22,264 bases of DNA from a virus, in the IMG/VR virus record IMGVR_UViG_3300042870_001990, positions 1 to 22,264 of that record. One strand, 5' to 3'. Of the stretch, positions 3,300-22,264 are shown piece by piece; the stretch's first letter is position 1, and every line of letters begins with the position of its first letter. The notes beneath the pieces are model-generated. The model did no database searches. It was not told the origin of the DNA and worked only from the letters and a program-made list of their open reading frames with translations. The position numbers were made by a program, and so were the translations under genes.

Positions 3300-3429
3300 T
3301 CGAGGTCTGCCTTCGGGTCGTGTCTGCACCATAGGTGCGTTGGCTGAGCGCTTGTCCCAGCATGAATTGCCTCTGCGTCAAATGCAATTGCTGCTCCTCT
3401 AACCAAAATCCGCTGAAAAGGATACCAAA
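3300..3429. other. Divergent intergenic region between bactofilin and tail tube genes
   Basis: These 130 bases lie between the two outward-facing starts. The right side carries the tail tube ribosome binding site AAAAGGA at 3416-3422. The rest is less GC-rich than the flanks and is the natural place for a bactofilin promoter. The only candidate seen on the minus strand is a TTGACG hexamer near 3380, but no acceptable -10 box lies 16-18 bases further, so no promoter is called. Confidence 0.5.
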
Positions 3430-4379: not shown

Positions 4380-4817
4380 ATGCTAACCCTCGATCTCACC
4401 AACGCACCTATTTGGTGCGACCTTGTCCCCGGCGTGCGCGTAAAACTCCGCCCGCTCACCACGGCGCTGATGGTGGCTGCACGCAGCGACCCCGCGATTG
4501 CCGACCTTCCGAAAGAGGCGAGGACGGAGGAGGCCGCACTGGCGATGGCCAAGGCGCTCGCGCGCTCTGCCATTCTTGAATGGGAAGGGATTGGGGACGC
4601 GGAGGGAGAGCCATTGCCGATAAGCCCTGATGCGATCGACGCGCTTTTGGACATCTGGCCGATCTTCGAGGCCTTCCAAAGCCTTTATGTCGCGAAAGGC
4701 TTGCTGCTGGACGCGGAAAAAAACGCCTCATCGCCCGTGCCGAGTGGGAGTTCGGCGGGGGCGACGGCTACTGCGCTGCCTGCGGATCCGTCTGCCCTGA
4801 CTGCCCTACACGACTGA
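4380..4817 (+). CDS. Tail assembly chaperone, lambda gpG-like (zero-frame product)
   Basis: A 145-residue protein. The conserved part is residues 1-115: a short strand-rich start (MLTLDLTNAPIWCDLVPG) and then helices ending in a WPIFEAFQSLYVAKGLLLDAEK segment. The last 30 residues are low-complexity Ser/Ala/Thr/Pro and look like the out-of-frame tail expected after a frameshift site. Such chaperones coat the tape measure protein and guide tail tube polymerisation. Position between tail tube and tape measure genes is as in lambda G. The heptamer A AAA AAC at 4718-4724, in the right phase, and an uninterrupted -1 frame after it indicate that a longer GT-type form is also made. ATG 4380 was chosen because the longer upstream frame overlaps the tail tube gene. 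Confidence 0.75.
   Translation: MLTLDLTNAPIWCDLVPGVRVKLRPLTTALMVAARSDPAIADLPKEARTEEAALAMAKALARSAILEWEGIGDAEGEPLPISPDAIDALLDIWPIFEAFQSLYVAKGLLLDAEKNASSPVPSGSSAGATATALPADPSALTALHD
4718..4724 (+). promoter_or_regulatory. Programmed -1 frameshift slippery heptamer A AAA AAC
   Basis: Zero-frame codons are GAA AAA AAC, so the heptamer reads A AAA AAC in the X XXY YYZ phase needed for tandem -1 slippage. The -1 frame stays open from here to the stop at 5042-5044. A short GCCGA/TCGGC hairpin (4739-4743 with 4752-4756) follows 14 bases downstream and could act as a stimulator, although the usual spacer is shorter. Lambda uses GGGAAAG at the same functional place. Confidence 0.65.
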
Positions 4818-5044
4818 ACCAGCCAATAACTTTCGAGGGTTGGCTGGTCTGGGACCTGGTCGGCCGCCTTGGGGGTCAGTTGCGCATCGTCCCCGGCGCT
4901 GTGATCGGCTGGGACATGAACGCGGCCTTTGCGCTTGGTGCGTCCCTCGGCATTCCGGCCCCAGCGATCGCTGAACTTTTACCTGCCATCGAGGCGGTGA
5001 TGGTGCGTAAGGTAAATGACCGGCTCGGCTCAGGCGGCCTTTAG
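4724..5044 (+). CDS. T-like extension of the tail assembly chaperone (made by -1 frameshift, fused from 4380)
   Basis: Read after -1 slippage at 4718-4724, this adds 106 residues to the first 115 of the chaperone, giving a 221-residue GT-like protein. The added part has a Cys cluster C-x2-C-x3-C-x2-C (CAACGSVCPDC) like a zinc knuckle, then a compact domain (FEGWLVWDLVGRLGG; GWDMNAAFALGASLGI; IEAVMVRKVNDRL). No plausible start with a ribosome site is seen at its head. The first in-frame start-like codons lie inside the domain, so frameshift expression is the simplest explanation. In lambda the T domain binds the tail tube subunit and G binds the tape measure protein. The last 15 bases overlap the convergent higA gene. 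The G-rich linker and Cys cluster are direct observations; zinc binding is inferred. Confidence 0.65.
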   Translation, partial: RLIARAEWEFGGGDGYCAACGSVCPDCPTRLNQPITFEGWLVWDLVGRLGGQLRIVPGAVIGWDMNAAFALGASLGIPAPAIAELLPAIEAVMVRKVNDRLGSGGL

Positions 5045-5320
5045 AGGTGTGATGTGTGAGACGTCGATTGTCTCTCGGGCACGCGCCAAATCCCAAGCGC
5101 GCTGGAGGTTCATCCAATACTCTGGCGTGGTTGAGAAAAACTGAGCAAGCCGCATCGCAGTATCAATCGTGATGGCGGTCTGGCCTTTAACAAGGCGCTC
5201 GATACGGGTTCTCGGCACTTCGAGCCTGCCGGCGAGCGAAATCGGGCTCATGTCGAGTGGCATGAGATAAAGCTCCGCCAGGACTTCGCCCGGGTGGGAT
5301 GGATTGGTTACGAGGCTCAT
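5030..5320 (-). CDS. higA: HigA-type antitoxin (XRE helix-turn-helix)
   Basis: A 96-residue protein beginning MSLVTNPSHPGEVLAELYLMPLDMS, the hallmark start of the HigA addiction-module family. The helix-turn-helix is in the middle (LAGRLEVPRTRIERLVKGQTAIT, then TAMRLAQFFSTTPEYWMNLQRAWDL). It should neutralise the HigB toxin and repress its own operon. ATG 5320 was chosen because AGGAGGG (complement of 5327-5333) lies six bases upstream; this site overlaps the higB stop codon. In this family toxin precedes antitoxin, and that order is present here, with 11 bases between. The gene is antisense to the tail operon and its 3' end overlaps the T-like reading frame by 15 bases. Confidence 0.9.
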   Translation of the reverse strand: MSLVTNPSHPGEVLAELYLMPLDMSPISLAGRLEVPRTRIERLVKGQTAITIDTAMRLAQFFSTTPEYWMNLQRAWDLARARETIDVSHITPLKAA

Positions 5321-5331
5321 GTTTAGCCCTC

Positions 5332-5613
5332 CTAGTGATAGTCCAGAATCTCGACCTCGGCAGGTCCCTGATCGGTCCAGATGAAACAAATGCGCCATTG
5401 GCCGTTGATGCGCACCGAATGTTGTCCTGCACGGTCACCGCTCAAAGCTTCCAAATGGTTGCCGGGCGGGAACCGCAAGTCTTCGAGAACGACGGCCGCA
5501 TCCAAGGCTGAAAGCATGGCGCGCGTTCTCTTAACCAAGTCAGCAGGAAAGCCTTTGCCGAAGCGACCTTGAACCGCTCCAGCGGCAAGCTTTCCACGTG
5601 TGCTGAAGATCAT
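5332..5613 (-). CDS. higB: HigB-type toxin (RelE superfamily mRNA interferase)
   Basis: A 93-residue protein of HigB size. The family signature is present: a central segment with LVKRTRAMLSALDAAVVLEDLRFPPGNHLEALSGDRAGQ and a C-terminal strand pair (HSVRINGQWRICFIW...VEILDYH). The closing ...DYH with its terminal His matches the usual HigB end. Such toxins cut mRNA on the ribosome. ATG 5613 gives the normal N-terminus; ATGs at 5631 and 5628 would put the start inside the palindrome upstream. It forms an operon with higA and is probably repressed by HigA bound to the inverted repeat at 5620-5640. It lies antisense just before the tape measure gene. Confidence 0.88.
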   Translation of the reverse strand: MIFSTRGKLAAGAVQGRFGKGFPADLVKRTRAMLSALDAAVVLEDLRFPPGNHLEALSGDRAGQHSVRINGQWRICFIWTDQGPAEVEILDYH

Positions 5614-5619
5614 AATGGC

Positions 5620-5640
5620 ATGTATCATCATGTGATACAT
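5620..5640. promoter_or_regulatory. Palindromic operator of higBA
   Basis: A perfect inverted repeat with 8-bp arms, ATGTATCA and TGATACAT, around a 5-bp spacer TCATG. It lies seven bases upstream of the higB start and 17 bases before the tape measure start. Placement and symmetry are what is expected for the HigA-HigB autorepression site. It is the only clear AT-rich palindrome in this GC-rich stretch. Confidence 0.7.
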
Positions 5641-5657
5641 ATTGCAAGGGCAATACC

Positions 5658-8165
5658 GTGGCCGAAAAACGCATCTCTGTCCGGCTTGCCGCGGTGGGTG
5701 GCCGTCAAGTTCGTGCTGAGCTGGAAGGTGTGGGCCAGGCCGGATCCAAAGGCTTTGGACGTCTCTCACGCGAGATGGAGCTGGCCAACGCCCGTCTTGC
5801 GGGTTTTGCGCGCAAAGCCGGAATTGCCCTTGGAGCTGCGGCCGCGGCAGCGACAGCGTCGCTGGGCGTTATTGTGCGATCCACGGCACAGAGTGCTGCC
5901 GAGATCACCCAGTTTGCCCAGATCGCCAATGCCGCGCCGGAGGCTTTCCAGCGCTGGACGGCCGCATCGGTGACGGTCGGGATCGAACAAGAGAAACTCG
6001 CCGATATTCTGAAGGACGTGAACGACCGGGTGGGGGACTTCCTGCAGACGGGCGGCGGCCCGATGGCGGACTTTTTTGAGAAGATCGCGCCGAAGGTGGG
6101 GGTGACGGCTGAAGAGTTTGCACGGCTCTCGGGACCTGAGGCGCTGCAGCTTTATGTCTCAAGCTTGGAGAAGGCGGGCGTCAACAGCCAAGAGATGACC
6201 TTCTATCTCGAGGCGATGGCCTCGGATGCCACGCGGCTCATTCCCTTGCTGCAAGACGGTGGCGCGGAGATGGCGCGGTTGGGCGAGCGGGCGGCGGGGC
6301 TTGGGGTGGTGCTTGACCAAAGGGCGCTCAGCGCCTTGCGACGGGCAGAGTTGGCCCTGATCGGTGTGGGTCAGGTCTTTGAGGGCATGCGCAATCAGAT
6401 CGGCGCGGCTTTGGCGCCTGCGGTGGCGGCTCTCGCCGAGGGGTTTGTGCGGCTGGCGGAGGTTGGTGGGCCTATCAATCGGGCCTTCACCGCCGTAATC
6501 GACAATCTCGGCCGGCTGACAACCTATGCCGCAACTTTTGCGACGGTCATGGTGGGGCGCTGGGTGGTGGGATTGGCTGCTGCGGCCCTCTCCGTGAAGG
6601 GCCTCGCCACGGCGCTGGTCTTTCTGCGCGGCGCTTTGATACGCACTGGGATCGGCGCGCTCATCGTGGGCGCGGGCGACCTTGTTTACCAGTTCACGCA
6701 ACTTGTGGGCAAAGTCGGTGGGGTTGGCACCGCCTTCGGCCTCTTGCGTGATGTCGCGGCAGAGGCCTGGGATCGCCTTGCGCTGGCAGCCACAGCGGCG
6801 TGGTCGCGCGTTGAGGCCGGCTGGGTGGACACACAGGCGGGGATTTACGGTGGGCTGCAATCGGCGCTGTCGGCTGTGGTAGCCTGGGGCAATTCTGCTG
6901 TCGGGACGTTCCAGGGCGCTTTTGACGGGGTGAAGGCGATCTGGGGCGCGCTGCCGCAGGCCATCGGGGATTTTGCCTATCAAGCGGCGAATGGACTGAT
7001 CGGTGGTGTCGAGTCGATGTTGAATGCGGTGGTTACGCGCATCAACAGCTTCATCGAAGGTCTGAACGCGGCGCTGGCCCTCCTGCCTGATTGGGCGACG
7101 GGTGAAGCTGGCCTAAGAATCGGCACACTCGAGGCGGTGGACCTCGGCGGAATTACCAATCCCTTCGAAGGCGCAGCCTTGGCGGCAGGCACGGCTGCTG
7201 CTGACGCGTTCCGTGCGGCCATGGGCAAGACCTATATCAAGGCACCTGATCTCTTCGGTGGCATGGCGGAGGCAGCACGCGGTCGCGCTTCCGGCTATGG
7301 TGAGGCGGCGGGTATGCTCTCGGAGGCCGCCTCCCGCCCGATGAACGCTTGGGAGGCCCTCAAGGCAGCAATCACCGGCGCGGGGAGAGAGGGCGAGGAC
7401 GCTTTGGCTGGTGCTACTGAGGCGGCGGGCGCTGTATCCGATGGCTTTGATGCGGCAGGCCAAGCCGCTGGTGGGGCGGGCGGTGCGGCCAAGAAGGCGG
7501 CAGAAGAAGCGGCGACCGGCTGGGCGCAGGTTACAAAGTCCCTCGCGGACTATGCCAAGGGCGCGATGGATTGGGGCAAAGGGCTTGGCGAGACGCTGAC
7601 CTCGGCCTTCTCTTCAGCGGAAAGCGCGTTCCGGCAGTTTGTGACCACCGGCAAGTTTGACTTCAAATCGCTGGTCTCCTCGATCTTGGCGGACCTCGCG
7701 ACGCTTGCCTTCAAGAATGCAGTGTTGGGCCCACTTGCTTCCGCACTTTCGGGCATCTTTGGCGGTGGGATCTTTGGGGGTGGGGCAGCGGCTGCCGCAA
7801 ACCCTATGGTGAACGCGAGCATCTGGCATACGGGCGGCATGGTGGGTGCGGGCGCGCCGATGCGCGCGGTGCCAGTCACCGCCTTTGCAGGTGCCCCTCG
7901 GCTGCATACAAGTGGCTGGGCAGGACTTCGACCTGATGAGGTTCCTGCGATCTTGCAGCGTGGAGAACGGGTGCTGAACCGTCGTGAGGCGGCTGGGTAT
8001 GGACGGGGCGCTGGCACCGGCGTAACCGTGAACATCGACGCACGCGGGGCGCAGATGGGCGTGGCCGAGCAGATTGATGCGCGGCTGCGGGCTGCCATCC
8101 CTGAAATCGCCCGCATCGCGAAGGAAAGCGTGGCCGATGGGCGGCGCCGGGGCCAGGTGATCTGA
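5658..8165 (+). CDS. Tail tape measure protein
   Basis: An 835-residue protein that sets tail length and probably leads DNA entry. The N-terminus (KRISVRLAAVGGRQVRAELEGVG) is typical of lambda-like tape measures. It is followed by an Ala-rich hydrophobic segment near residues 52-73, a second hydrophobic stretch near residues 295-345, helical Ala/Gly-rich regions, and a C-terminal block (FRQFVTTGKFDFKSLVSSILADLA, a Gly-rich GIFGGGIFGGG run, EVPAILQRGERVLNRREA) matching the lambda gpH C-terminal region. At roughly 0.15 nm per residue the tail would be about 125 nm. Start GTG 5658 has AAGGG at 5646-5650, seven bases upstream. The higB operator lies just before it. It follows the chaperone gene across the inserted higBA. 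Confidence 0.92.
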   Translation: MAEKRISVRLAAVGGRQVRAELEGVGQAGSKGFGRLSREMELANARLAGFARKAGIALGAAAAAATASLGVIVRSTAQSAAEITQFAQIANAAPEAFQRWTAASVTVGIEQEKLADILKDVNDRVGDFLQTGGGPMADFFEKIAPKVGVTAEEFARLSGPEALQLYVSSLEKAGVNSQEMTFYLEAMASDATRLIPLLQDGGAEMARLGERAAGLGVVLDQRALSALRRAELALIGVGQVFEGMRNQIGAALAPAVAALAEGFVRLAEVGGPINRAFTAVIDNLGRLTTYAATFATVMVGRWVVGLAAAALSVKGLATALVFLRGALIRTGIGALIVGAGDLVYQFTQLVGKVGGVGTAFGLLRDVAAEAWDRLALAATAAWSRVEAGWVDTQAGIYGGLQSALSAVVAWGNSAVGTFQGAFDGVKAIWGALPQAIGDFAYQAANGLIGGVESMLNAVVTRINSFIEGLNAALALLPDWATGEAGLRIGTLEAVDLGGITNPFEGAALAAGTAAADAFRAAMGKTYIKAPDLFGGMAEAARGRASGYGEAAGMLSEAASRPMNAWEALKAAITGAGREGEDALAGATEAAGAVSDGFDAAGQAAGGAGGAAKKAAEEAATGWAQVTKSLADYAKGAMDWGKGLGETLTSAFSSAESAFRQFVTTGKFDFKSLVSSILADLATLAFKNAVLGPLASALSGIFGGGIFGGGAAAAANPMVNASIWHTGGMVGAGAPMRAVPVTAFAGAPRLHTSGWAGLRPDEVPAILQRGERVLNRREAAGYGRGAGTGVTVNIDARGAQMGVAEQIDARLRAAIPEIARIAKESVADGRRRGQVI

Positions 8166-9343: not shown

Positions 9344-9751
9344 ATGCCACGCGTTGAACACTGGGAACGCCTGCTTGCATCGGTGATCGACACCGCCCGC
9401 GAGCGACCCTTCATCTGGGGCCTCCATGACTGCCCGACCTTTGCCTTCGAGACACGGATGATCCTGACCGGCGGCGAGGATATCGCGGGCCTCTGGCGCG
9501 GGCGCTACACAACGCATCTCGGGGGCCTGCGTGTGATGCGCCGCCTTGGCTGGGCCTCAGTGGAAGATATGGGGCGTGCGCTCTTGGGAGAACCGCGCGC
9601 AACCCCGCTTTTGGCGCAGCGCGGGGACATTGTGCTAACGGACACAGGGCTTGGCTTTGGCGTGGTGATCGGCGCCACCGCTGTGGGTCTCGCACCCGTG
9701 GGTCTCACCTTCGCGTCGCTCACCTCTTGTCGACTTGCCTGGCCCATCTGA
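9344..9751 (+). CDS. NlpC/P60-like tail protein (DUF6950 type)
   Basis: A 135-residue protein with the motif PFIWGLHDCPTFA (Cys30), the place of the catalytic Cys in NlpC/P60-type cysteine peptidases, and a GDIVLTDTG turn as usual before the catalytic His. The His itself is not seen at the expected place (the segment reads GFGVVIGATAVGL), so enzymatic activity is doubtful. This agrees with the DUF6950 group found in phage tails, which keeps the Cys motif but not always a full triad. In lambda-like tails the K gene product at this place is a peptidase-like tip protein. It lies between the DUF2163 and gpJ-type genes. Confidence 0.7.
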   Translation: MPRVEHWERLLASVIDTARERPFIWGLHDCPTFAFETRMILTGGEDIAGLWRGRYTTHLGGLRVMRRLGWASVEDMGRALLGEPRATPLLAQRGDIVLTDTGLGFGVVIGATAVGLAPVGLTFASLTSCRLAWPI

Positions 9752-9780
9752 ACGCGACCCATTTAGACGAGACACTCCCC

Positions 9781-12324
9781 ATGCCCTTCATTGTGACAGC
9801 CGTCACCGCGGTCGCGGGGGCGATTGGCGGCGTTTTGGCCGCCGGTGGCATTGGGGCTGCCCTCATTCGGATTGGGGGCACGCTCCTTCTGTCCTATGCG
9901 GCCCAGGCGCTCATGCCAAAGCCGCAAATGACGCTGCAGGCGCGGACGGTCACGGTGCGCGAGCCTGTGATGCCGCGCGATCTTGTTTACGGGCGCACCC
10001 GCAAAGGCGGGGTCATTGTCTTTCTGCATTCCTCCGGATCAGAAAACCAATACCTCGATCTGGTCATCGTTCTTGCGGCGCACCGGGTCAAATCGATCGG
10101 CGCCATCTACTTCGAGGGCGAGATGGCCCTCAGTGCTGCCGGCGTCGCCCAAGGTCGCTGGGCCGGAAAAGTCCTCGTCGAAAAGAAACTCGGCACCGCC
10201 AACCAGACAGCCTTCGTGGGTCTTAAGGCTGCGCTGCCTGACAAATGGACCGAGAACCATCGGCTGCGCGGCTGTGCGGCAATCCGGCTGCGGCTCACCT
10301 ATGATCAGGATGCTTTCCCGGGCGGCATTCCGAACATCACGGTGGACATCGAGGGCAAGGACGACATCTTTGACCCCCGCACAGAAACTCATGCCTATTC
10401 AGAAAACCCTGCGCTGTGCCTTGCCGATTATATGGCGCATCCGGAGTTCGGGATCCGGGCAGAGATCGGGGCGGCGGATGGGGTTGACCGGATGAGCCTC
10501 GTTGAGGCGGCCAACATTTGTGATGAGGTGGTGGCCAAGGTCGGGGGTGGGACAGAGCCGCGCTATGCCTGCAATGGGGTGATCTCGCTTTCCGAGCCTC
10601 CAAAGACAATCATCGAGGGGATGCTCTCGTCTTTTGCCGGGCGCTGCGCCTTCTCGGGCGGGGCCTGGCGCATCCATGCCGGGGCTTGGGCTGTGCCATC
10701 GGTGGCGCTGACCTCGGATCATGTCCGGGAGGGTGGTCTCACCTTGGCGACGCGCGTGACGATGTCGTCAAACTTCAACGCGGTTCGGGGCCAGTTTGTG
10801 AGCCCCGAGAATGACTGGCAGCCGGATGACTTCCCGGCCTATGCGAGCGATGTCTATCTCGCCGAGGACGGTGGGGAGCGGCGGTGGCGCGATATCTCGC
10901 TGCCCTTCACAATATCGGCCTCCATGGCGCAGCGGCTCGCCAAGATTGAGCTTGAACGCGCGCGTCGACAGATGACGGTGCGGCTCTCGGGGAAACTGTC
11001 GGCCTGGGCCGCAACGGTGGGGGATGTGGTGACGCTCTCCTATGCGCGCTGGGGCTTTGCCGCCAAACCGTTTGAGGTGCATGGGGTCAGCCTCGATCTA
11101 ACCGTCTCAGGCGATGGCGCGCTGTTGCTGCCAGAACTCGTTCTGCGTGAGACCTCGCCCTTGGTGTACGACTGGGCGGCCTCGGAAGCGCGGATTTATG
11201 CGGCCGCGCCACGCACCAGCCTGCCGTCGGCGCGGGATATCCCGGCGCCTGGGGCGCCGCAGGCCACTGAGGAGATCTATGTCACCCGTGATGGCGGCGG
11301 GCTCAAGGTTTTGGCGCGGGTCACCTGGGCCGCGGCACCCTCAAGCTTTGTCGCGGCCTATCAGCTGCAGGCCCGCCAAGGCTCGGGGGCTTGGCAGGAT
11401 TATGGGCGGACCGATGGAACCAGCCTTGAGATCCGCGACATCGCGCCAGGTGGCTGGTCCTACCGGGTCAAGGCAGTGTCGGTGCTCGGTGTCTCATCGA
11501 GTTGGCAGACGAGCACGGTTGAGATCCGCGGCCTGACGGCACCGCCGGCGCAGCTTGAGAACGTCACTCTACAGACCGCAGGTGGCCTTGCGATCCTCAA
11601 ATGGACCCGCTCGGCCGATCCCGATGTAAGGGTCGGCGGCAACATCGTGATCCGACACTCGAAGGAAGCGACGGCCACCTGGGCCGACAGCTATTCGATG
11701 GACCGGGTCTCGGGTGGCGAGGCCATCGCCGTCGTGCCGCTGAAACCCGGTACCTACCTGGTGCGCGCCGAGGATAGCGGCGGCCGTGCCGGTCCCGAAA
11801 CCCGCGTCTCGACCAAGGGCGCGCAGGTGCTGGCATTCTCGCCTTTGGGCATGCTGCAGGCTGATCCGGGGTTTGTGGGTTCAAAGACCGGGCTCATGGT
11901 TGCCACAGGCACTCTAACGCTCGCCACGGCAACGGTAAATGGTGTGACGCAGGTGACGTCGTTGGAGGGGCAGTATGGCTTTGCCGCCGGGCTCGATCTT
12001 GGGGCGATCAAGCGTGTCCGACTTCGCTCAGAAATCGGTGTGGCGGCTCTGGCGCTCAACGACCGGATCGATGCACGCACCGCGCTCATGGACACATGGG
12101 CGGACTTTGATGGGGCCGCCGGGGCAGAGATCGATGTGCTCTTTGAGATCCGAGAGACCGATGACAACCCAAGTGCAAACCCCATCTGGGGTCCTTGGGG
12201 TCGACTGGACACCCATGAGATTGAGGCCCGCGCGGTTCAGGCGCGGGCCATCCTCTCGACGAAGGACGCGTCCTACACGCCCATCGTCACCCAATTGCGG
12301 CTATATGCCGATGAGGTCGCCTGA
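9781..12324 (+). CDS. Host specificity / tail tip protein, gpJ-like
   Basis: An 847-residue protein at the tail tip, expected to bind the host receptor. The N-terminus is hydrophobic with many Ala/Gly (residues 1-43), followed by the phage tail domain (PRDLVYGRTRKGGVIVFLHSSG; AHRVKSIGAIYFEGEMA) and the block with NPALCLADYMAHPEFGIRAEIG. Two fibronectin type III-like segments follow (about residues 495-585, with GSGAWQDYGRTDG, and 585-675, with PGTYLVRAEDSGGRAG). The C-terminal part is beta-rich. ATG 9781 was chosen; a TTG further upstream overlaps the preceding gene and adds a non-homologous stretch. The stop shares one base with the next start. Confidence 0.88.
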   Translation: MPFIVTAVTAVAGAIGGVLAAGGIGAALIRIGGTLLLSYAAQALMPKPQMTLQARTVTVREPVMPRDLVYGRTRKGGVIVFLHSSGSENQYLDLVIVLAAHRVKSIGAIYFEGEMALSAAGVAQGRWAGKVLVEKKLGTANQTAFVGLKAALPDKWTENHRLRGCAAIRLRLTYDQDAFPGGIPNITVDIEGKDDIFDPRTETHAYSENPALCLADYMAHPEFGIRAEIGAADGVDRMSLVEAANICDEVVAKVGGGTEPRYACNGVISLSEPPKTIIEGMLSSFAGRCAFSGGAWRIHAGAWAVPSVALTSDHVREGGLTLATRVTMSSNFNAVRGQFVSPENDWQPDDFPAYASDVYLAEDGGERRWRDISLPFTISASMAQRLAKIELERARRQMTVRLSGKLSAWAATVGDVVTLSYARWGFAAKPFEVHGVSLDLTVSGDGALLLPELVLRETSPLVYDWAASEARIYAAAPRTSLPSARDIPAPGAPQATEEIYVTRDGGGLKVLARVTWAAAPSSFVAAYQLQARQGSGAWQDYGRTDGTSLEIRDIAPGGWSYRVKAVSVLGVSSSWQTSTVEIRGLTAPPAQLENVTLQTAGGLAILKWTRSADPDVRVGGNIVIRHSKEATATWADSYSMDRVSGGEAIAVVPLKPGTYLVRAEDSGGRAGPETRVSTKGAQVLAFSPLGMLQADPGFVGSKTGLMVATGTLTLATATVNGVTQVTSLEGQYGFAAGLDLGAIKRVRLRSEIGVAALALNDRIDARTALMDTWADFDGAAGAEIDVLFEIRETDDNPSANPIWGPWGRLDTHEIEARAVQARAILSTKDASYTPIVTQLRLYADEVA

Positions 12325-15340: not shown

Positions 15341-16024
15341 TCAGTTCTTGCCGCAGCACTGCTTGTATTTGCGACCCGAGCCGCAGGGGCATGGATCGTT
15401 GCGGCCGGGGCGCGGCGCGGATTTGAACGGCTGGCCGGGGAGATTGGCCGGGACCCCGCCGACCAGTTCGGGGCGCGATTGGTGCAGGATCGTCGCCACG
15501 CAGTTCGGGATCAGATCAGGCGCCTCTTGGTCGATCTGGTCGATCTCTTCATCGCTGAACTTGCTGTTCCCCGTGTAGATATCCTGCAGCGCCATGATGA
15601 AAATCATGGTCTCACGGGTCTCGTCATCGGCCCGATCGAGGAGCGCCTCCCAGGCCTTGGGCCTCAAGGCCATGGCGCGTGTGAAGCCATCAACCCAAGG
15701 TTCCCAGAGGGTCTCGTCGCTGTTCGTGTCGATCTCGTAGATCGGTTCGACCCAGAGCGATTGCGTGATCCGGGCAGCGACATCGTTGTAATGGGCCATC
15801 ACCGCGCCGATCGTCTCCTGCGCCGAGGCGAGGTCGGGGAATTGCGCATCTCCCGTGACACCCCAGACCTGCGAGAGCCAATCGGAGGGCGGGATCATCT
15901 CGGGGCAGGCCAGAAGGCCCGTCACGAAGCCATCCAGCTCGCTGACCGTCATAGGTTCGTTCTCGACGGGCAGCGCCTGCAAGAGGTCTTCCAGACGGTC
16001 GAGCCGTTCGTCGTCCTGATCCAT
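15341..16024 (-). CDS. UPF0149/YecA-like protein with C-terminal SEC-C motif
   Basis: A 227-residue protein. The N-terminal two thirds match the UPF0149/YecA family ([31 protein letters not shown], then [20 protein letters not shown]). The C-terminus is a SEC-C zinc-binding motif ([17 protein letters not shown]), as in SecA and many small host proteins. ATG 16024 is fixed by AGGAGG seven bases upstream; an upstream ATG at 16063 lies before this ribosome site. The role of such proteins is poorly known; the SEC-C motif binds zinc and contacts ribosomes or SecB in SecA. It is antisense and not structural, so it is cargo. It separates the lysis genes from the fibre operon. Confidence 0.85.
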
Positions 16025-16126
16025 GACCCGTTCCTCCTGCAGCTGCGCTCCCCTTAGCCGCAATGGCCTGAATTCTCAATCGAACTCGTTCCGACCAGGC
16101 CGCTCGGATGGTCCGCGGAGGCATGC
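16025..16126. other. Divergent intergenic region between UPF0149 and fibre operon
   Basis: About 100 bases with ribosome sites at both ends: AGGAGG for the minus-strand gene and GGAGG at 16117-16121 for the plus-strand fibre operon. Promoters for both directions should lie here or be absent for the plus side if late readthrough is used. A minus-strand TTGAGA box exists, but without a good -10 box, so no promoter is called. Confidence 0.5.
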
Positions 16127-16489: not shown

Positions 16490-16717
16490 ATGGCGACTGC
16501 GCTGGACCTGCGACCGTTCACGGGGCCGATCCGCATCTTTGTCACCTCGGAGGCGCCGATCGCGCTGCGGCTTTCCACAGGGCCGATCGGGATCCGCGTC
16601 CTCGGTCAGCCGGGGCCGCAGGGATTGACTGGCCCCCAAGGCGACAAGGGTGATCAGGGCGCGCCCGGCATCACGATCCTGCCCACTGACACTCCCATCA
16701 ACGGAGGATTTTTCTGA
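16490..16717 (+). CDS. Small fibre protein with collagen-like repeat
   Basis: A 75-residue protein. The N-terminal part (residues 1-40) has two similar halves (FTGPIRIFVTSEAPIALRL, then STGPIGIRVLG). A collagen-like G-X-Y stretch follows (GPQGLTGPQGDKGDQGAPG, six triplets), then a short end PTDTPINGGFF. Collagen-like triplets are common in phage tail fibres and give a trimeric stem. Its stop overlaps the next start by one base, so it is coupled to the large fibre gene. The short length suggests it forms a stem or joint rather than a receptor-binding tip. Confidence 0.7.
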   Translation: MATALDLRPFTGPIRIFVTSEAPIALRLSTGPIGIRVLGQPGPQGLTGPQGDKGDQGAPGITILPTDTPINGGFF

Positions 16718-17961
16718 TGGCGAACACGATCCAGCTCAAACGTCGCGTCTCGGGCGTGGCAGGCGCACCCGCTGCGCTCAAATCCGGCGAGATCGCTCAT
16801 AATGAGGTCGATGACACGCTCTATGTCGGCAAGGGCGATGACGGAGCAGGCAATGCGACCTCGATCGTTCCGGTGGCCGGAAGCGGGGGGTTCCTCGCGC
16901 TCATCGGCACACAGACCCTGGGCGGGTCCAAGACTTTCTCTCTCGTCCCCAAATCTGCCCAGGACGCCAGTGCCGCGACCGATCTCGTACGCAAGTCCCA
17001 GCTGGATGCCGGCCTTGCCGCGAAGGCCGCGCTCAGCCATAGCCATGCCATCGCAGATGTCACCGGTCTGCAGGGCGCACTCGATGGAAAGCTTGGCGCG
17101 ACGGCGAATGCCGTCTCGGCAAGCAAACTGGCCACCGCCCGCACGATCGCGCTAGCAGGTGATCTTTCCGGATCTGTCAGCTTTGACGGCTCGGCCAATG
17201 TCAGCATTACAGCCGTGGTAGCCGATGACAGCCACGCCCATGTCATCGCCAATGTGGACGGTCTTCAGGCCGCACTTGACGCGAAGGCTCCGCTAGCTTC
17301 GCCCGCGCTAACCGGCACGCCGACTGCGCCCACGGCCATCTCGGGGACGAACACCACCCAGGTGGCAACGACCGCCTTCGTGCAGCAGGCCATTGTCGAC
17401 TTTGGCCCCGGCGACATGCTGGCTGCCACTTATGACACAGATGCCGATGGCAAGGTCGATGCAGCGGAGGTGGCAGATGCGGCACCCTGGGCTGGTATCA
17501 CCGATAAGCCCACGAGCTTTCCGCCCTCGACCCACAGCCATACGATCTCGCAGGTCACCGGCCTGCAGACCGCGCTTGATGCCAAGGCGGCTCTGGCCTC
17601 GCCGGCTTTGACCGGTACGCCGACCGCTCCAACGGCCGTTGCGGGCACCAACACGGCTCAGATCGCGACGACCGCCTTTGTCGCCGCCGCCATCGGCGCG
17701 TTGATTGATGCCGCACCCGGCGCAATGGACACACTGAACGAGTTGGCGGCGGCCCTCGGGGACGATCCGAGCTTCGCAACCACGGTGACGAATGCGTTGG
17801 CGGGCAAGCTCTCCGCCGCCTCGAACCTCTCGGATCTGCCGAACAAGGCAACAGCCCGCACCAACCTCGGGCTTGGCTCGATTGCCACGCAAGCGGCGAA
17901 CAGCGTCGCGATCACCGGCGGGTCGATCGACGGGATTGCGCTCGACGGGGGCACGTTCTGA
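16717..17961 (+). CDS. Tail fibre protein with 100-residue repeat and EF-hand-like loop
   Basis: A 414-residue fibre protein. The N-terminus (MANTIQLKRRVSGVAGAPAALKSGEIAHNE) is shared in pattern with the next gene. Tail fibre repeats follow: SHSHAIADVTGLQ, DDSHAHVIANVDGLQ and STHSHTISQVTGLQ, each with ..LDAK or ..LDGK. Two near-identical segments (residues 183-226 and 283-326) lie exactly 100 residues apart. Between them DTDADGKVDAAE (residues 240-251) matches the EF-hand calcium loop. The end has LSDLPNKATARTNLGLGSIATQ, a common fibre motif also seen in the gene at 12324. Function: long side or tip fibre, probably trimeric. No S74 domain is present in this protein; the next gene has one. Confidence 0.85.
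   Translation: MANTIQLKRRVSGVAGAPAALKSGEIAHNEVDDTLYVGKGDDGAGNATSIVPVAGSGGFLALIGTQTLGGSKTFSLVPKSAQDASAATDLVRKSQLDAGLAAKAALSHSHAIADVTGLQGALDGKLGATANAVSASKLATARTIALAGDLSGSVSFDGSANVSITAVVADDSHAHVIANVDGLQAALDAKAPLASPALTGTPTAPTAISGTNTTQVATTAFVQQAIVDFGPGDMLAATYDTDADGKVDAAEVADAAPWAGITDKPTSFPPSTHSHTISQVTGLQTALDAKAALASPALTGTPTAPTAVAGTNTAQIATTAFVAAAIGALIDAAPGAMDTLNELAAALGDDPSFATTVTNALAGKLSAASNLSDLPNKATARTNLGLGSIATQAANSVAITGGSIDGIALDGGTF
17263..17394 (+). repeat. Intragenic fibre repeat, copy 1
   Basis: Codes for residues 183-226 of the fibre protein, with the core ASPALTGTPTAPTA. Similar at DNA level to copy 2, 300 bases downstream, with mostly silent differences, which indicates old duplication under protein selection. 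Confidence 0.8.
17563..17694 (+). repeat. Intragenic fibre repeat, copy 2
   Basis: Codes for residues 283-326 of the fibre protein; the same pattern as copy 1 with exact 300-base spacing. Both copies carry the ATTAFV motif at their end. Confidence 0.8.
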
Positions 17962-17963
17962 CC

Positions 17964-18557
17964 ATGGCCAACACGCTTCTCGTCAAGCGCACGACCGTGG
18001 CAGGCCGTGTGCCTACCACGGCGCAGCTGGCCGCGGGGGAACTGGCCGTCAATGTCACCGACGGCAAGCTCTACCTCAAGAAAAGCACGAGCGGGGTCGA
18101 AAGCATCGTCGATGTGACATCGGCCGCGCTCACTGACGCCCAGATCTTCGCCAAGGTCACAGCGCAGGATGGCGCGGGGTCCGGCCTTGATGCCGACCTG
18201 CTCGATGGCAGCCATGCCAGTGCTTTCGCACTCCTGAGCGGAGCGACCTTCTCTGGCACGGTGACCGCACCGAACTTCGTCTCATCCTCGGACGCGCGGC
18301 TCAAAGCCGATATTGCGCCAATCCAGGACGCTCTTCCGAAGGTGCAGGCCCTAACCGGCGTCACCTTCACGATGGTAGGCAGCAATCTGCGGCAGATGGG
18401 TCTCATCGCACAGCAAGTCAAAGTTGTCGCGCCGGAGGCCGTCGTCGAGGCCGAGGGCATCTTGCGCCTCGCTTATGGCAATCTCGTGGGTCTCCTCGTC
18501 GAGGCCATCAAAGACCTCGCAGCAGAGGTCGATCAGTTGAAAAGGACCGCGCGATGA
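17964..18557 (+). CDS. Second tail fibre protein with S74 intramolecular chaperone domain
   Basis: A 197-residue protein. The N-terminus (MANTLLVKRTTVAGRVPTTAQLAAGELAVN) resembles the start of the fibre gene before it. A DLLDGSHASAF fibre motif follows at about residues 79-89, then an S74 domain (NFVSSSDARLKADIAPI ... MGLIAQQVKVVAPEAVV ... LAYGNLVGLLVEAIKDLAAEVDQLK). Ser109 and Lys114 match the self-cleavage pair. The domain is very close to the one in the gene at 12324, over protein and partly over DNA (the GTGACCGC.CCGAACTTCGTCTC stretch). It starts two bases after the fibre stop and its own stop overlaps the next start. It may act as chaperone for the fibre assembly or be a fibre by itself. 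Confidence 0.85.
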   Translation: MANTLLVKRTTVAGRVPTTAQLAAGELAVNVTDGKLYLKKSTSGVESIVDVTSAALTDAQIFAKVTAQDGAGSGLDADLLDGSHASAFALLSGATFSGTVTAPNFVSSSDARLKADIAPIQDALPKVQALTGVTFTMVGSNLRQMGLIAQQVKVVAPEAVVEAEGILRLAYGNLVGLLVEAIKDLAAEVDQLKRTAR

Positions 18558-19456
18558 TCGAGACAGGGCTTTATGCCATTACGAACTGCGGCGTCCCGCG
18601 CCATTATGCCGTAGACATCAAGCCGGACTATGTCGCCGTCGCGGTCTTTGAGTTTTCGGCGCCTGGCACCTCGAGCGCTATGGGCGGGGTCATGCTTTGG
18701 GCAGACCTGCTCGCCCATCTCGAGGCGCGGCCGGCCTTCGGTAATCAGGCAGGCTTTGTCGATCTATCCCATAACGAGAGCTTCATCCCCGATCTGCCGG
18801 GCGCGCCTGTGGGCGCGGTCTACAAGGGCAGGTCCTGCATCTTCGCTGCTGGCATGCGCGGACATGACGAGTTGGTCGATTACTCGCTGATCGATATGGC
18901 TGTCGGCGCCGATGGGCGGCCGCTGTCGTGGCGGAACCGCTTTGCCCAATCCGCGCGCGAGAAGGTCGATACGTCCTTTCGGCATCGGGCGCGGGAAGGG
19001 ATATCCAATGCGCTTGTGGTCTTCCTGCCCGTGGTCGTGCCTTTCGATCAGGCACGCGTGGAGGTACTTTGCCAGATCCCACCCATCCTTCTGAACGGCA
19101 CGGTGCTGGCAGGGACCATCGATGACGCCACGATCCCCAAAGATGGGCTCTGGTACAAGCAGTTCTACTTCCATGGCGTTGGTCCGCAGATTGCCACCGT
19201 GATGGCTGGCGGACGCGTGGATGTGCCTGTCGCACTTCGGTGGAATGCCGATGGCTCGGCCTTTGCACATCCCGTGATGCTGAAACTCGAGGCAGATGCG
19301 GGCTACCTGCCGAAGCGGCGCCTGCTGACCGCACCAGATGGAACTGGCAGCTTCGCCGTCGAGGCTGCGGGTCTTTCCCCCGGCGATCGCATTACCGTGA
19401 AACTCAACACCGAGCATTACACCGCGATCGGGAAGATTGTGGTGGAGGTGGTCTGA
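18554..19456 (+). CDS. Unknown fibre-operon protein with Ig-like C-terminus
   Basis: A 300-residue protein that I do not recognise. It has a mixed N-terminal half (GLYAITNCGVPRHYAVDIKPDYVAVAVFEF; SHNESFIPDLPGAP; CIFAAGMRGHDELVDYSLIDMAV) and a C-terminal strand-rich segment (residues about 215-300, MAGGRVDVPVALRWNADG ... SFAVEAAGLSPGDRITVKLN) resembling an Ig-like domain. No signal or membrane helix is seen. The start overlaps the S74 protein stop (ATGA) and the stop shares a base with the oxygenase-like gene, so it is coupled on both sides. It may be a fibre or host-surface binding protein, or an accessory part of the modification system downstream. Confidence 0.55.
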   Translation: MIETGLYAITNCGVPRHYAVDIKPDYVAVAVFEFSAPGTSSAMGGVMLWADLLAHLEARPAFGNQAGFVDLSHNESFIPDLPGAPVGAVYKGRSCIFAAGMRGHDELVDYSLIDMAVGADGRPLSWRNRFAQSAREKVDTSFRHRAREGISNALVVFLPVVVPFDQARVEVLCQIPPILLNGTVLAGTIDDATIPKDGLWYKQFYFHGVGPQIATVMAGGRVDVPVALRWNADGSAFAHPVMLKLEADAGYLPKRRLLTAPDGTGSFAVEAAGLSPGDRITVKLNTEHYTAIGKIVVEVV

Positions 19457-20196
19457 TGGAATTTCACACCACAAGCGAGTTCCAGCTGATCTACCCGAGC
19501 TTTGTGCTGCACAAGCATTGGGAGATGCCGGAGGGCTTCAACGACCGGCTTCATGCGCTTGCGGTCCACGATGCCGAGACCAATCGGATCCGCGAGGTTA
19601 GCGATGGGCGCAATGTCGGGGACCTGACCAATCACCTTGGCCATCTGCGGCACAACTTTCTGATGGACCGGCGAGACCCAGCGCTGGCCGTTTTGGCGCA
19701 GATGGTGGCTGCGGGCGTGCGGGAATATCTTCAGCTGGCCTATGGCTACGGCCACACTGGCGATATCTGCATGATGTCGGACACGTTCTGGCAGCGCCGC
19801 GCTGCCCGCGAAAACGTGGGCATCAACACCCACACCCATATCCAGACCGACATCGTCTGCACCTACTACCCGCGGGTGGCGCTGGACGCCGATTGCCCGG
19901 ACACCTCGCTGCATCGCGGGGCGGTGCGGTTTTATGATCCTGCGAATGTTGGCAAGCGGCTTTGGCCCTGCCGGAACCCCGACGCCTATGTCGGCGGCTG
20001 GTATGCGGTCTATCCGAAGGCAGGCTCGATGCTCGTCTTCGAAGGGCATGTTCCCCACGACAGCACTTACTTCGAGGGCGAGGAGCGGATGTGTATCCCG
20101 GTCCTCTGTTCGCTCGAACTCCCGAATTCTCACCGCAAGGTCAGGCTCGCAGAGATCTTGGCCCATCAGGCGCAAGGAGGCAGCTATGGCGTATAA
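19456..20196 (+). CDS. 2OG-Fe(II) oxygenase-like protein, phage-type (Oxy_5 group)
   Basis: A 246-residue protein. Pattern of the double-stranded beta-helix oxygenases of the PF13759 type: NTHTHIQTDIVCTYY aligns residue by residue with the HxHp...SGvyY motif (His126 and His128 as metal ligands). It is followed by AVRFYDPANVG, then AVYPKAGSMLVFEGHVPHDS, which is the FPswlpH motif (His201), and an Arg at 211 (GEERMCIPV) as usual for 2OG binding. Such enzymes hydroxylate proteins or small molecules. The start overlaps the preceding stop, and the last bases overlap the next start. Placed directly before a Cys-rich small protein, a second oxygenase and a radical SAM gene, so a protein-modifying role on a fibre-type substrate is inferred. 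Confidence 0.72.
   Translation: MEFHTTSEFQLIYPSFVLHKHWEMPEGFNDRLHALAVHDAETNRIREVSDGRNVGDLTNHLGHLRHNFLMDRRDPALAVLAQMVAAGVREYLQLAYGYGHTGDICMMSDTFWQRRAARENVGINTHTHIQTDIVCTYYPRVALDADCPDTSLHRGAVRFYDPANVGKRLWPCRNPDAYVGGWYAVYPKAGSMLVFEGHVPHDSTYFEGEERMCIPVLCSLELPNSHRKVRLAEILAHQAQGGSYGV
20174..20180 (+). promoter_or_regulatory. Ribosome binding site AAGGAGG of the Cys-tail protein
   Basis: A full consensus Shine-Dalgarno, five bases before ATG 20186 and inside the coding end of the oxygenase. Among the coupled genes here this is by far the strongest site, so the small Cys-tail protein is probably made in larger amount than the enzymes around it. Confidence 0.65.
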
Positions 20197-20500
20197 GGTT
20201 GGAACGACCATCGTGATTGATGACAGCGGAAACGTGGACTGGTCGCGCATCGCCAACAAGCCCGCGATCGGTACGGGCGATGTGACGGGTGTGACGGTGG
20301 TCAACGGGACCCCAACGTCAGGTGCCACAGGTTCCTCGACTGGCGCGGTCTATGGCACAGGGACGATCAATACCAACTTCAACGGTACAACGACCTACAA
20401 CTGCTACGTTGAAAGCCTTTCGGGCGGTGGCACCGCAGGGGCGGTCACGATCACGGCCAACCGCAAGACCTTCAACTGCAACTGCGCCTGCCGGTGCTGA
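20186..20500 (+). CDS. Small fibre-like protein with alternating-Cys C-terminus (candidate substrate of the modification enzymes)
   Basis: A 104-residue protein. Residues 1-30 (MAYKVGTTIVIDDSGNVDWSRIANKPAIG) have the W-x-x-I-x-x-KP motif also seen in the fibre at 16717 (PWAGITDKP). The middle is Gly/Thr/Ser/Asn-rich and beta-like, without charge. The end is TFNCNCACRC: Cys at 98, 100, 102 and 104, the last as terminal residue; one more Cys at 73. An alternating C-x-C-x-C-x-C tail with Asn, Ala and Arg between is unusual, and could be a site for thioether or disulfide linkages or metal binding. ATG 20186 has AAGGAGG at 20174-20180. It lies between two oxygenase-like genes and just before a radical SAM protein, so it is the natural substrate candidate. 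That link is an inference. Confidence 0.8.
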   Translation: MAYKVGTTIVIDDSGNVDWSRIANKPAIGTGDVTGVTVVNGTPTSGATGSSTGAVYGTGTINTNFNGTTTYNCYVESLSGGGTAGAVTITANRKTFNCNCACRC

Positions 20501-20502
20501 CA

Positions 20503-21129
20503 ATGGAGGCTCAAAGCACCACCCTGGAGCTCTGGCCGACGCGGGTCACCTTCTTTGAAACGCCGGTGGACTGGGACGCTGACCGGCGGCTTGCCGACGA
20601 AGCAATCGCGGCTGTAACGGGCAATTCTACGCGCCTGTCTGCGGCCGAGCGCCGAGTGCGGGGCATTCTCGAGCGTAGTGAAGCCGGCCAAGCCCTGAAA
20701 TCCCACCTCTTCGCCTGCGCGCGTGCGGTCCTCGGCCCCTGGGCCCAATATCTCGACCCCTCCCATTGCGAAAACCGCGCCCTCGTCATCGAGCCCGGTG
20801 GCTTCATCTCGACCCACAAGGACAGCCGGGAGGGGGATCTCACTTGCGTACACTTCCTCACCGGCAGCGGGGCGGGGCGGCCGGTGAACTCTGTTGGCAC
20901 CCCGCGTTTTGTGATCGAGGATCCGTCGCGCTACTTTGATGAGGGACGGCTGCCCTATGAGAGCCGTCATGGCTACTCGGTCAATCCGCGGCCAGGGCTC
21001 TCAGTCTTCTTCCCTTCCCACATTCCCCACAACCAGCACCCCTATGAGGGGAGCGCGCCGCATGTGCAGGTCGTCGCGAACTTCCGCGTCAACTTGCCTG
21101 TGGCGATCGAGGAAAGGTTTTTTGACTGA
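20503..21129 (+). CDS. Second 2OG-Fe(II) oxygenase-like protein
   Basis: A 208-residue protein with a beta-helix oxygenase pattern: PGGFISTHKDSREGDLTCVHFLTG gives an H-x-D pair (His105, Asp107). FVIEDPSRY follows, then PGLSVFFPSHIPHNQHPYEG, which holds the distal His (His176), and a closing VVANFRVNL strand. It differs clearly from the oxygenase at 19456, which has an H-x-H type motif, so the two are not simple copies. ATG 20503 was chosen; the GTG at 20494 overlapping the previous stop would add three residues. It begins two bases after the Cys-tail protein, and its stop shares a base with the radical SAM start. The substrate is unknown. Confidence 0.68.
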   Translation: MEAQSTTLELWPTRVTFFETPVDWDADRRLADEAIAAVTGNSTRLSAAERRVRGILERSEAGQALKSHLFACARAVLGPWAQYLDPSHCENRALVIEPGGFISTHKDSREGDLTCVHFLTGSGAGRPVNSVGTPRFVIEDPSRYFDEGRLPYESRHGYSVNPRPGLSVFFPSHIPHNQHPYEGSAPHVQVVANFRVNLPVAIEERFFD

Positions 21130-22264
21130 TGTGGTTCGACCTGACGCTCGAAGCGCGTGACGGCAGCCGCCATCACATGCGCTACAACCCGCACACATCG
21201 GAATGCGAGGGGCTGCCGCTGCCGGTGAACCCGGGAACCTTCGCGCCGGTACCGCGTGTCGCCAAAGACAAGCCCCTCGGAAAATCGCGCGCTCCCCGCA
21301 TCCTGAAGATCCAGCTCGGGCTCTCGTGCAACTATGCCTGCAGCTATTGCAGCCAGGCCTTCCAGATTGCGGATGCGACAGTCTCGAAGTTTGCGGATGT
21401 CGAGCACTTCCTGACCGAGCTGGACGGCTGGATTGCCCAAGCCCCAGAAAAGATCGAGCTTTGGGGCGGGGAGCCGTTTCTGTATTGGGCCAAGATCAAG
21501 CGGCTGATCCCGGCGCTGGCGGAGCGGTTCCCGAAGGCAGCCTTCTCAATCATCACGAATGGGTCGCTCCTTGACCGTGAAAAGCTCAACTTCATTGTCG
21601 CGCATGACATCGCCATCACGATCTCGCATGACGGGCCCGGCCAGCATTTGCGCGGGCCTGATCCTTTTGATGATCCCGAAAAGCGGCGCTGGATTGAAGC
21701 TCTGCTGGCGGAGCGGCCGGGGAGGACCGGCTTCAACGCAGTGCTGACGCGGGGGAACCATGATCTCAGGGCGCTGAAGGCATGGTTCGCTGAAAAGGTC
21801 GGGCCGGACATCTTCGTGGGGCTCGAGGGCGTGGTGAACGTTTATGACGCCGCGACTGCCATCGGGACGGGGCGGTTTGAGCCCGCAGAACTGAACAGCC
21901 TGACGTGGTCGGTATTCGAGGCGCTGGTTGAGGATCCGAACGCCTTCGGTCTCGGGGAGCGCATCAACGAATTCTACGCCTCGATCCAACGGCGGCGGCC
22001 GATCCAAGCCCTCGGTCAGAAATGTGGAATGGACAGCGCGGACGCCATCGCAGTTGATCTGCGTGGGAACGTCATGACCTGTCAGAACACAGGTGCCAAG
22101 GGGGCGCACAAGATCGGTCATGTTGCTGACTTTGACGCAATCGCGCTCGACACTGCGACGCATTTTGCCTTCCGGGAGGAATGCATGTCATGCCCGGTCG
22201 TTCAGCTCTGCAAGGGATCGTGCATGTTCCTCGAGGGGGAGTTCTTCAAGCAGAGCTGCGCGAA
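21129..22264 (+). CDS. Radical SAM/SPASM protein (partial, 3' end outside window)
   Basis: At least 378 residues, open to the right edge. It has the radical SAM site CNYACSYC (Cys67, Cys71, Cys74), a GGEP motif at 113-116 for SAM binding, and TIM-barrel strands (FSIITNG; ITISHDG). A SPASM domain follows: Cys299-x13-Gly313-x4-Cys318, then Cys352-x2-Cys355-x5-Cys361-x3-Cys365 and Cys377, which is the complete seven-Cys plan for two auxiliary iron-sulfur clusters. SPASM enzymes modify ribosomally made peptides (thioether, carbon-carbon or other links) or proteins. No leader-binding RRE domain is seen at the N-terminus; the first 55 residues are a separate small segment (DGSRHHMRYNPHTSECEGLPLPVNPG). 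It is coupled to the oxygenase before it. Confidence 0.93.
   Translation, partial: MWFDLTLEARDGSRHHMRYNPHTSECEGLPLPVNPGTFAPVPRVAKDKPLGKSRAPRILKIQLGLSCNYACSYCSQAFQIADATVSKFADVEHFLTELDGWIAQAPEKIELWGGEPFLYWAKIKRLIPALAERFPKAAFSIITNGSLLDREKLNFIVAHDIAITISHDGPGQHLRGPDPFDDPEKRRWIEALLAERPGRTGFNAVLTRGNHDLRALKAWFAEKVGPDIFVGLEGVVNVYDAATAIGTGRFEPAELNSLTWSVFEALVEDPNAFGLGERINEFYASIQRRRPIQALGQKCGMDSADAIAVDLRGNVMTCQNTGAKGAHKIGHVADFDAIALDTATHFAFREECMSCPVVQLCKGSCMFLEGEFFKQSCA

Follow-up and report, generated by a model that had tools for sequence, protein, structure and literature searches.

Many phages appear, from their sequences, to carry a module in which a fiber protein ends in a cysteine-rich tail and a radical SAM/SPASM enzyme, here called R, is encoded close by; the module is widespread and, as far as our literature search shows, undescribed. 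The pairing of this (NC)n tail with R is strongly supported by the genomic linkage documented below, and we consider it very likely that R acts on the tail. Our preferred reading, which we think rather probable, is that R modifies the tail cysteines, with thioether cross-links as the most likely product, and thereby gives the fiber a hardened tip. No description of the tail/R pairing was found in the literature that we covered, which was mostly open-access with bioRxiv preprints outside its scope, and we saw no virion proteomics that included these tails. The analysis started from a single stretch of viral DNA, the window, which is the entire IMG/VR virus record IMGVR_UViG_3300042870_001990 (22,264 bases).

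The fiber locus of the window

The window encodes a major capsid protein of phage type (PF03864, E 6.8e-79) as well as the tail and fiber genes summarized in Table 1. The genes for P, O1, the Cys-tail protein, O2, and R follow each other in this order with overlaps of 1, 11, 7, and 1 bases between neighbors, and the Cys-tail gene thus lies between the two O genes. The last of these overlaps is the TGATG at 21127-21131, which bears out the sequence-only reading that R is coupled by a one-base overlap to a gene in a phage fiber operon. The same reading had argued that R is not a host neighbor at the edge of a prophage, and we agree: this candidate explanation was rejected because the module is phage-wide and, of 295 genomes from one host family, just 4 carry R.

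Table 1. Tail and fiber genes of the window and the proposed members of the Cys-tail module.
Feature	Position	Strand	Matches and remarks
Tail tip (J-like) protein	9727..12324	+	PF13550 E 3.4e-13; upstream of the fiber module
Tail-fiber protein with phage tail repeats	16717..17961	+	PF12789 E 9.6e-14; phrog_2631 E 3.8e-49
Fiber protein with S74 intramolecular chaperone	17964..18557	+	PF13884 E 2e-12; tail-fiber PHROGs
Protein P, 300 aa, no named family; C-terminal Ig-like domain 205-300	18554..19456	+	
O1, 2OG-Fe(II) oxygenase-like	19456..20196	+	PF13759 E 4.4e-5; TIGR02466 E 1.1e-6; phrog_81 E 1.9e-7
Cys-tail protein, 104 aa, C-terminal FNCNCACRC; proposed substrate of R	20186..20500	+	
O2, 2OG-Fe(II) oxygenase-like, HxD...H motif	20494..21129	+	PF13759 E 0.012; phrog_81 E 1e-5
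R, radical SAM/SPASM enzyme, phrog_1802 family, 3' end cut by record end	21129..22264	+	

Elsewhere in the window, several genes lie on the minus strand. A bactofilin gene (2925-3332; PF04519, E 8.1e-21) is found within the phage morphogenesis region, a HigB-like toxin gene (PF05015, E 1.2e-13) paired with an HTH antitoxin-like gene (5030-5398 and 5332-5769) is inserted among the tail genes, and the gene of a UPF0149/SEC-C protein (15341-16063; PF03695, E 4.8e-34) is flanked by a peptidoglycan-binding gene and fiber genes.

Sequence, fold, and phylogeny of R

The reading frame of R starts with the ATG at 21129 and stays open for 378 codons up to the end of the record. As the sequence-only reading had claimed, the CxxxCxxC motif (C67/C71/C74), GGEP (residues 113-116), and seven SPASM cysteines (C299, C318, C352, C355, C361, C365, and C377) are intact, and none of the ten cluster cysteines varies across 30 aligned rows, namely the window and 29 relatives that are 34-95% identical to it. 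That reading had also called the enzyme complete, which holds for the domains but not for the gene, which is cut by the contig end: the record stops one codon past the last SPASM cysteine, and a relative with 95% identity to R (L003) reaches its stop about 36 codons beyond the end of the window.

R meets both the SPASM model TIGR04085 (32.9 bits, cut-off 27) and the radical SAM model PF04055 (37.1 bits, cut-off 29.5), and its match to the phrog_1802 profile across residues 46-377 (E 2.2e-52) identifies it as a member of this large phage family. Relatives of R are encoded by all 444 candidate stretches from viral contigs and, in a second scan of viral contigs, by at least 588 stretches (588 of 599 among the matches listed), so that the match is not due to chance. 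Another 235 stretches with R relatives come from bacterial genomes, with records that include Thalassovita, Thalassobacter, Nereida, Limnohabitans, Variovorax, Ramlibacter, Bradyrhizobium, Magnetospirillum, and Paraburkholderia. Among the 25 curated full-length maturase models listed, R scores above the cut-off of none; the nearest is PapB (NF047865; 70.2 bits, cut-off 340), and the score is far below the cut-off for SCIFF, too. The models for the anaerobic sulfatase-maturating enzyme anSME (TIGR03942) and for QhpD (TIGR03906) give 39 bits against a cut-off of 349.45 and 46 bits against 453, respectively.

The structural model of R (pLDDT 90.6) has its best match in the thioether synthase CteB (Z 22 over 324 residues), besides matches to ChlB (Z 20.5), anSMEcpe (Z 20.2), and TigE (Z 17.8), and fits the epimerase EpeE more poorly (Z 15). 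Its N-terminal 50 residues are modeled as three short strands that align onto the start of CteB, which makes the absence of an RRE leader-binding domain, as read from the sequence alone, less than certain. In a tree of 45 proteins, a branch with 99/99 support parts the main phage R rows from the anSME, QhpD, and NlpM references, and some divergent phage paralogues stand on long branches on the reference side of it. This placement among SPASM enzymes, suggested as a check when the sequence was first read, puts R outside the anSME clade. An arylsulfatase gene neighbors anSME in 3/3 references, and no sulfatase gene is present among the window genes scanned around R. The homologue of R in phage JWF is annotated as an anaerobic sulfatase-maturating enzyme; we considered this identity for R and discarded it by score, tree, and neighbors.

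Genomic linkage of the Cys tail and R

Proteins that end in NCNCNCRC, NCNCNCNCDCYC, and similar sequences are seen upstream of R across its first 80 relatives. A DNA scan that is independent of R yielded at least 120 stretches matching NCNCNCNC, and among the matches listed the repeat forms the end of an open reading frame of at least 60 aa in 94 cases. With contig ends included, R lies downstream on the same strand for 78 of these 94 C-terminal tails. It is found within 6 kb on the same strand for 67 of the 68 tails listed that have at least 3 kb of downstream sequence, a count that leaves out the 26/94 tails with less, and for 57/57 of those listed with 4 kb. Another 30 of the matches listed are non-C-terminal or fall into short reading frames, and R is present at 3 of their 29 loci, in two of which (L094 and L193) the run is a tail with a further domain behind it.

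Controls behaved differently: R is near none of 124 matches of the control repeat NTNTNTNT, and a same-strand R within 6 kb is missing at all 63 matches of KCKCKCKC; four contigs with KC runs do carry R, but farther away than this rule allows. The variant DCNCDCNC has R at 4/4 C-terminal matches with room for it. Since KCKCKCKC occurs without R nearby, the linkage follows the N/D-C pattern and not cysteine ladders as such. It persists across R enzymes that are only about 40% identical. In the 295 genomes of one bacterial family mentioned above, the window-type tail pattern is confined to 4 sites in 2 genomes, all of them 683-686 bases away from a gene for R. The prophages of Thalassobacter stenotrophicus CECT 5294 comprise three full copies and one fragment at a contig end.

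Seen from the side of R, a same-strand tail is present at 69/71 viral, 48/62 bacterial-genome, and 12/18 further viral loci, compared to opposite-strand tails at 13, 5, and 0 of them; these counts refer to loci with at least 6 kb upstream (9/80, 18/80, and 14/32 were left out), and the 80 loci kept per relative scan are the best matches, not a random draw. Under a stricter tail rule, the figures are 61/71 on the same versus 7/71 on the opposite strand and 47/62 versus 0/62. By the rules used, a tail is absent from 14/62 bacterial-genome and 6/18 further viral loci. Loci without a tail despite sufficient room are L042; L211, L214, L219-L223, L226, L235, L238, and L275; as well as L332, L335, L348, L355, and L357. 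Also counted as tail-less are L278 and L281, the YC-type tails of which are missed by the rule, and L242, where the run is off the C-terminus and R is incomplete at the contig end, while L057 and L312 have internal tail runs only.

Anatomy of the tail and the domains behind it

Across 795 XC units from 160 distinct tails, X is Asn in 72%, Ala in 10%, and Asp in 9%, and the XC run ends exactly at the C-terminus in 84 of these tails. In window-type tails (27 distinct DNAs), Cys at positions -1, -3, -5, and -7 and Asn at -6 and -8 are invariant while the codons vary at all of these positions except the last Cys, and selection therefore acts on the protein level. The body ahead of the tail differs between near relatives and can even be of unrelated sequence (L003 versus L005); tail-bearing fiber proteins span about 65 to 700 aa, and their bodies form 8 clusters without detectable mutual similarity. 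This variation speaks against the earlier idea that R recognizes its partner via the fiber-like N-terminal part of the Cys-tail protein. Because the bodies change while the (NC)n end and its C-terminal place persist, recognition by R seems more likely to lie in the tail or in protein P. The broader proposal that the Cys-tail protein is the likely partner of R is upheld in kind by the linkage of tail and enzyme.

Three short NC-tail proteins are encoded in tandem at L124, L139, L146, L178, and L195. The fiber regions of L089, which looks like a T4-type phage, and of L129 contain four and three radical SAM genes, respectively, next to a short protein with an NC tail; the L089 tail gene had no blastn match among phages. 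Fiber-like proteins with very long KCKCKC repeats were noticed at L041:951-1748, where an S74 chaperone follows, and at L057:1790-2518, and both contigs have R more than 5 kb off the KCKCKC gene.

The tail is either a free C-terminus or stands directly before a domain of the Hint or S74 type. Achromobacter phages JWF and 2-1 have a Hint domain immediately behind the fiber tail (PF05203; 47.5 bits in JWF and 46.6 bits in 2-1, cut-off 32.1), with the JWF sequence reading NCNCDCNCNCSCFPAGTMVLMADG... at this point. L026 passes the same cut-off, L065, L271, and L193 are under it, and the tail-then-Hint layout is discernible by sequence in L029-L032, L036, L067, L259, L266, and L268. At L041 and L166, an S74 chaperone comes within a few residues of the tail (50.6 and 29.2 bits, cut-off 22). 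An impression that some R loci lack tails was dropped, as most of these had a tail and then a Hint or S74 domain. Hint and S74 domains cut themselves off. Self-cleavage would leave the tail as the new C-terminus, and, of all our observations, the position of these self-cleaving domains directly behind the tail points most strongly to the importance of a free tail end. A separate layout at L094:41-943 and L196:2-937, both on the minus strand, has an NC tail followed by a C-terminal domain with an ICTEL/ICTKL motif.

Accessory proteins

Judging from gene neighborhoods, one or two putative 2OG-Fe(II) oxygenases and the Ig-tailed protein P often complete the module. The usual order is fiber with tail, P, none to two O, and R, with tail, R, P at other loci. 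P was found in 182 loci and is present in 56/71, 29/43, and 44/62 of those with 6 kb upstream; these counts take in R loci only, since the P DNA alignment is too loose to serve as bait and enzyme-less P loci were thus not counted. The figures for O are 58/71, 22/43, and 40/62. In the model of P (pLDDT 92.3), the C-terminal Ig-like domain is similar to domains found in intimin and in GH2 enzymes (Z about 10); the protein resembles unnamed phage proteins in BFVD and has no match in phage records. O1 and O2 score 24.2 and 16.4 bits with PF13759 (cut-off 27), which another member of the O family, at L044, passes with 27.7 bits. The Asn content of tails is no different whether a 2OG oxygenase is present or absent (0.71 versus 0.68, p 0.76), so that Asn hydroxylation gains no support from that test.

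Relatives of R in chromosomes and giant phages

A clade of R in Ramlibacter, Variovorax, and a gammaproteobacterial MAG is nested among the phage rows with 100/99 support, and no P, O, or tail is present in the stretches examined. At L222, L223, and L226, the R relative comes after a 70-aa reading frame, which in L223 reads LNCNVEVEPSSIDFLNEGAVFVAGSTSDCGCFISP. This Cys-bearing peptide is conserved in Variovorax and the gammaproteobacterial MAG (L222:7768-7977, L223:7711-7926, and L226:7716-7931), and from its sequence it looks like a RiPP precursor beside a chromosomal R.

SPN3US-like giant phages appear to carry a parallel system. In the four examined out of 82 records with the radical SAM enzyme (SPN3US, CR5, Wellington, and EarlPhillipIV), two (SGxC)n reading frames of 128-147 aa with 20-23 cysteines precede a radical SAM pair, being located one or two genes before it in 4/4. 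The SPN3US frames lie at L369:4094-4486 and 4497-4901, with a like layout in L282, L370, and L371; in SPN3US, both lack annotation, and the gene call SPN3US_0166 takes a different frame of that stretch. SPN3US gp168, encoded nearby, resembles phiKZ gp131, a protein that the available text of PMC5105663 places at the baseplate periphery.

Proposed mechanism and alternative explanations

In the mechanism that we propose, the C-terminal tail of the newly made fiber protein would alternate Cys with other residues, mostly Asn, and R, encoded just downstream, would act on this tail inside the infected cell. The likeliest chemistry would bond a Cys sulfur to a carbon of a tail Asn, Asp, or Ala. Accompanying 2OG-Fe(II) oxygenases would hydroxylate tail residues, and in some phages a Hint or S74 domain behind the tail would excise itself and set the tail free. 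The outcome would be a compact tip, proof against oxidation and resistant to proteases, on the host-contacting fiber, and its cross-links would avert stray disulfides outside the cell. Our best guess for the bond is a thioether, given the fold of R, a substrate rich in Cys, and the kinds of residue found at X, yet we see about an even chance that it is right: R passes no curated thioether-maturase cut-off, and anSME follows CteB closely in fold (Z 20.2 versus 22). Thioether acceptors named in the accessible parts of the respective papers are Asn and Ala in ruminococcin C and Asn in thurincin H (PMC8172795) as well as Asp or Glu for PapB, which accepts Cys-Asp separations of zero to six residues (PMC9413430). 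Whether the modified tip then serves adsorption is, in our estimate, evenly poised.

If tail and R merely shared a variable fiber locus without acting on each other, the mosaic nature of fiber loci and the differing bodies ahead of the tail among relatives would be expected, but we find this hardly credible in view of the 67/68 linkage (among the matches listed) in a DNA scan that started without R, the results with the control repeats NTNTNTNT and KCKCKCKC, and a linkage kept across distant R enzymes. We also think it very improbable that the tail is cut off and released as a RiPP-like toxin, signal, or superinfection factor with the fiber body as its leader. The small Cys-bearing peptide adjoining chromosomal R relatives and the tandem trios of short NC-tail proteins would suit such a release, but tails are fused to proteins with phage tail-fiber domains, and the domain behind the tail is mostly S74 or Hint, where a cut would keep the tail on the fiber.

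The tail could instead be a metal tip in which the Cys ladder of a fiber trimer holds iron, zinc, or an Fe-S cluster, with the enzymes tuning or protecting the ligands or modifying P, and no cross-linking of the tail. With X and Cys alternating, the thiols along a strand all point to one side, as in the HxH motifs that hold seven irons in the tip of T4 gp37 according to the consulted portion of PMC11705849, and P accompanies the module at most of the loci counted above. On the other hand, KCKCKCKC would offer equally good ligands and is without R within 6 kb at all 63 matches. Free thiols outside the cell would, moreover, oxidize, and on balance we regard a metal tip as unlikely. We assign a similarly low probability to other radical chemistry on the tail, be it conversion of Cys to formylglycine as by anSME, epimerization, or carbon-carbon links. 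It draws on anSMEcpe being among the closest folds and on the annotation of the JWF homologue, and two-residue repeats would suit alternate epimerization. Formylglycine formation goes with a CxPxR-type motif, which the tails lack, and the anSME references stand across the 99/99 branch with arylsulfatase neighbors, while epimerization is disfavored by the poorer fold match of EpeE.

Implications

More broadly, it may be that phages own RiPP-like adhesins, the exposed Cys-repeat ends of which are rebuilt by radical SAM enzymes and uncovered by Hint or S74 autoproteolysis; we see this as a proposition that could go either way. The same holds for its structural side, a tip that would be cross-linked, and possibly hydroxylated or metal-holding, on fiber or baseplate proteins. 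If true, the so far unexplained radical SAM genes within structural clusters of SPN3US-like, marine T4-like, and other phages would encode fiber maturases in place of metabolic enzymes, and the (NC)n and (SGxC)n repeats would represent two chemistries. Phages would equip the tips that bind the host with a kind of chemistry familiar from peptide antibiotics, and a viral structural protein would be matured by the radical peptide chemistry hitherto seen with bacterial peptides and a few enzymes, likely at the very site where the phage meets its host. The modules would further be a source of new thioether and oxygenase enzymes, and fibers expressed without their enzymes may be inactive.

Radical SAM genes have been noted at such places before: as cassettes that pelagimyophages carry in their host recognition cluster (PMC7029224), as eight genes that Aeromonas phage 332-Vera has in a structural cluster (PMC12390700), and as eleven genes in Campylobacter phage CP220 that were interpreted as metabolic (PMC2853527). 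The sections of these three papers available to us make no link to Cys tails. The adhesin reading, if correct, would account for the genes without a role in the first two and for those deemed metabolic in the third, as far as these sections describe them. Cultured phages JWF and 2-1 carry the tail/R system and, together with SPN3US, make it testable.

Comparison with known systems

The closest parallels are CteB, PapB, and the sactisynthases, which share a seven-Cys SPASM domain and a Cys-rich substrate encoded next to the enzyme. RiPP systems in general encode the substrate beside the maturase, as is the case for the Cys tail and R with the tail as presumed substrate. However, CteB, PapB, and the sactisynthases use short precursors with a removable leader, whereas here the substrate would be the end of a phage fiber protein; unlike in CteB-type maturases, no full RRE is seen in R, and PapB substrates have Cys-X3-Asp/Glu repeats that are absent from the FNCNCACRC tail of the window. 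With anSME (TIGR03942), R has in common its fold (Z 20.2), a proposed action on Cys, and the annotation in JWF, but anSME has a sulfatase partner and forms a separate clade, and the operon of R is without a sulfatase. QhpD, the maturase of quinohemoprotein amine dehydrogenase, is like R a radical SAM/SPASM enzyme and makes Cys cross-links inside a protein subunit; it differs by falling into a separate clade.

Among phages, the radical SAM genes of SPN3US (gp163/gp164), CR5, Wellington, and EarlPhillipIV are comparable in having Cys-rich repeat reading frames in a baseplate or fiber locus, but the repeats are (SGxC)n and not (NC)n, and the enzymes are only remotely related to R. T4 gp37-type HxH tips share with the (NC)n tails an alternating ligand-type residue at the tip of a fiber; the residue in gp37 is His, whereas the (NC)n tails have Cys, at the very C-terminus and with dedicated enzymes.
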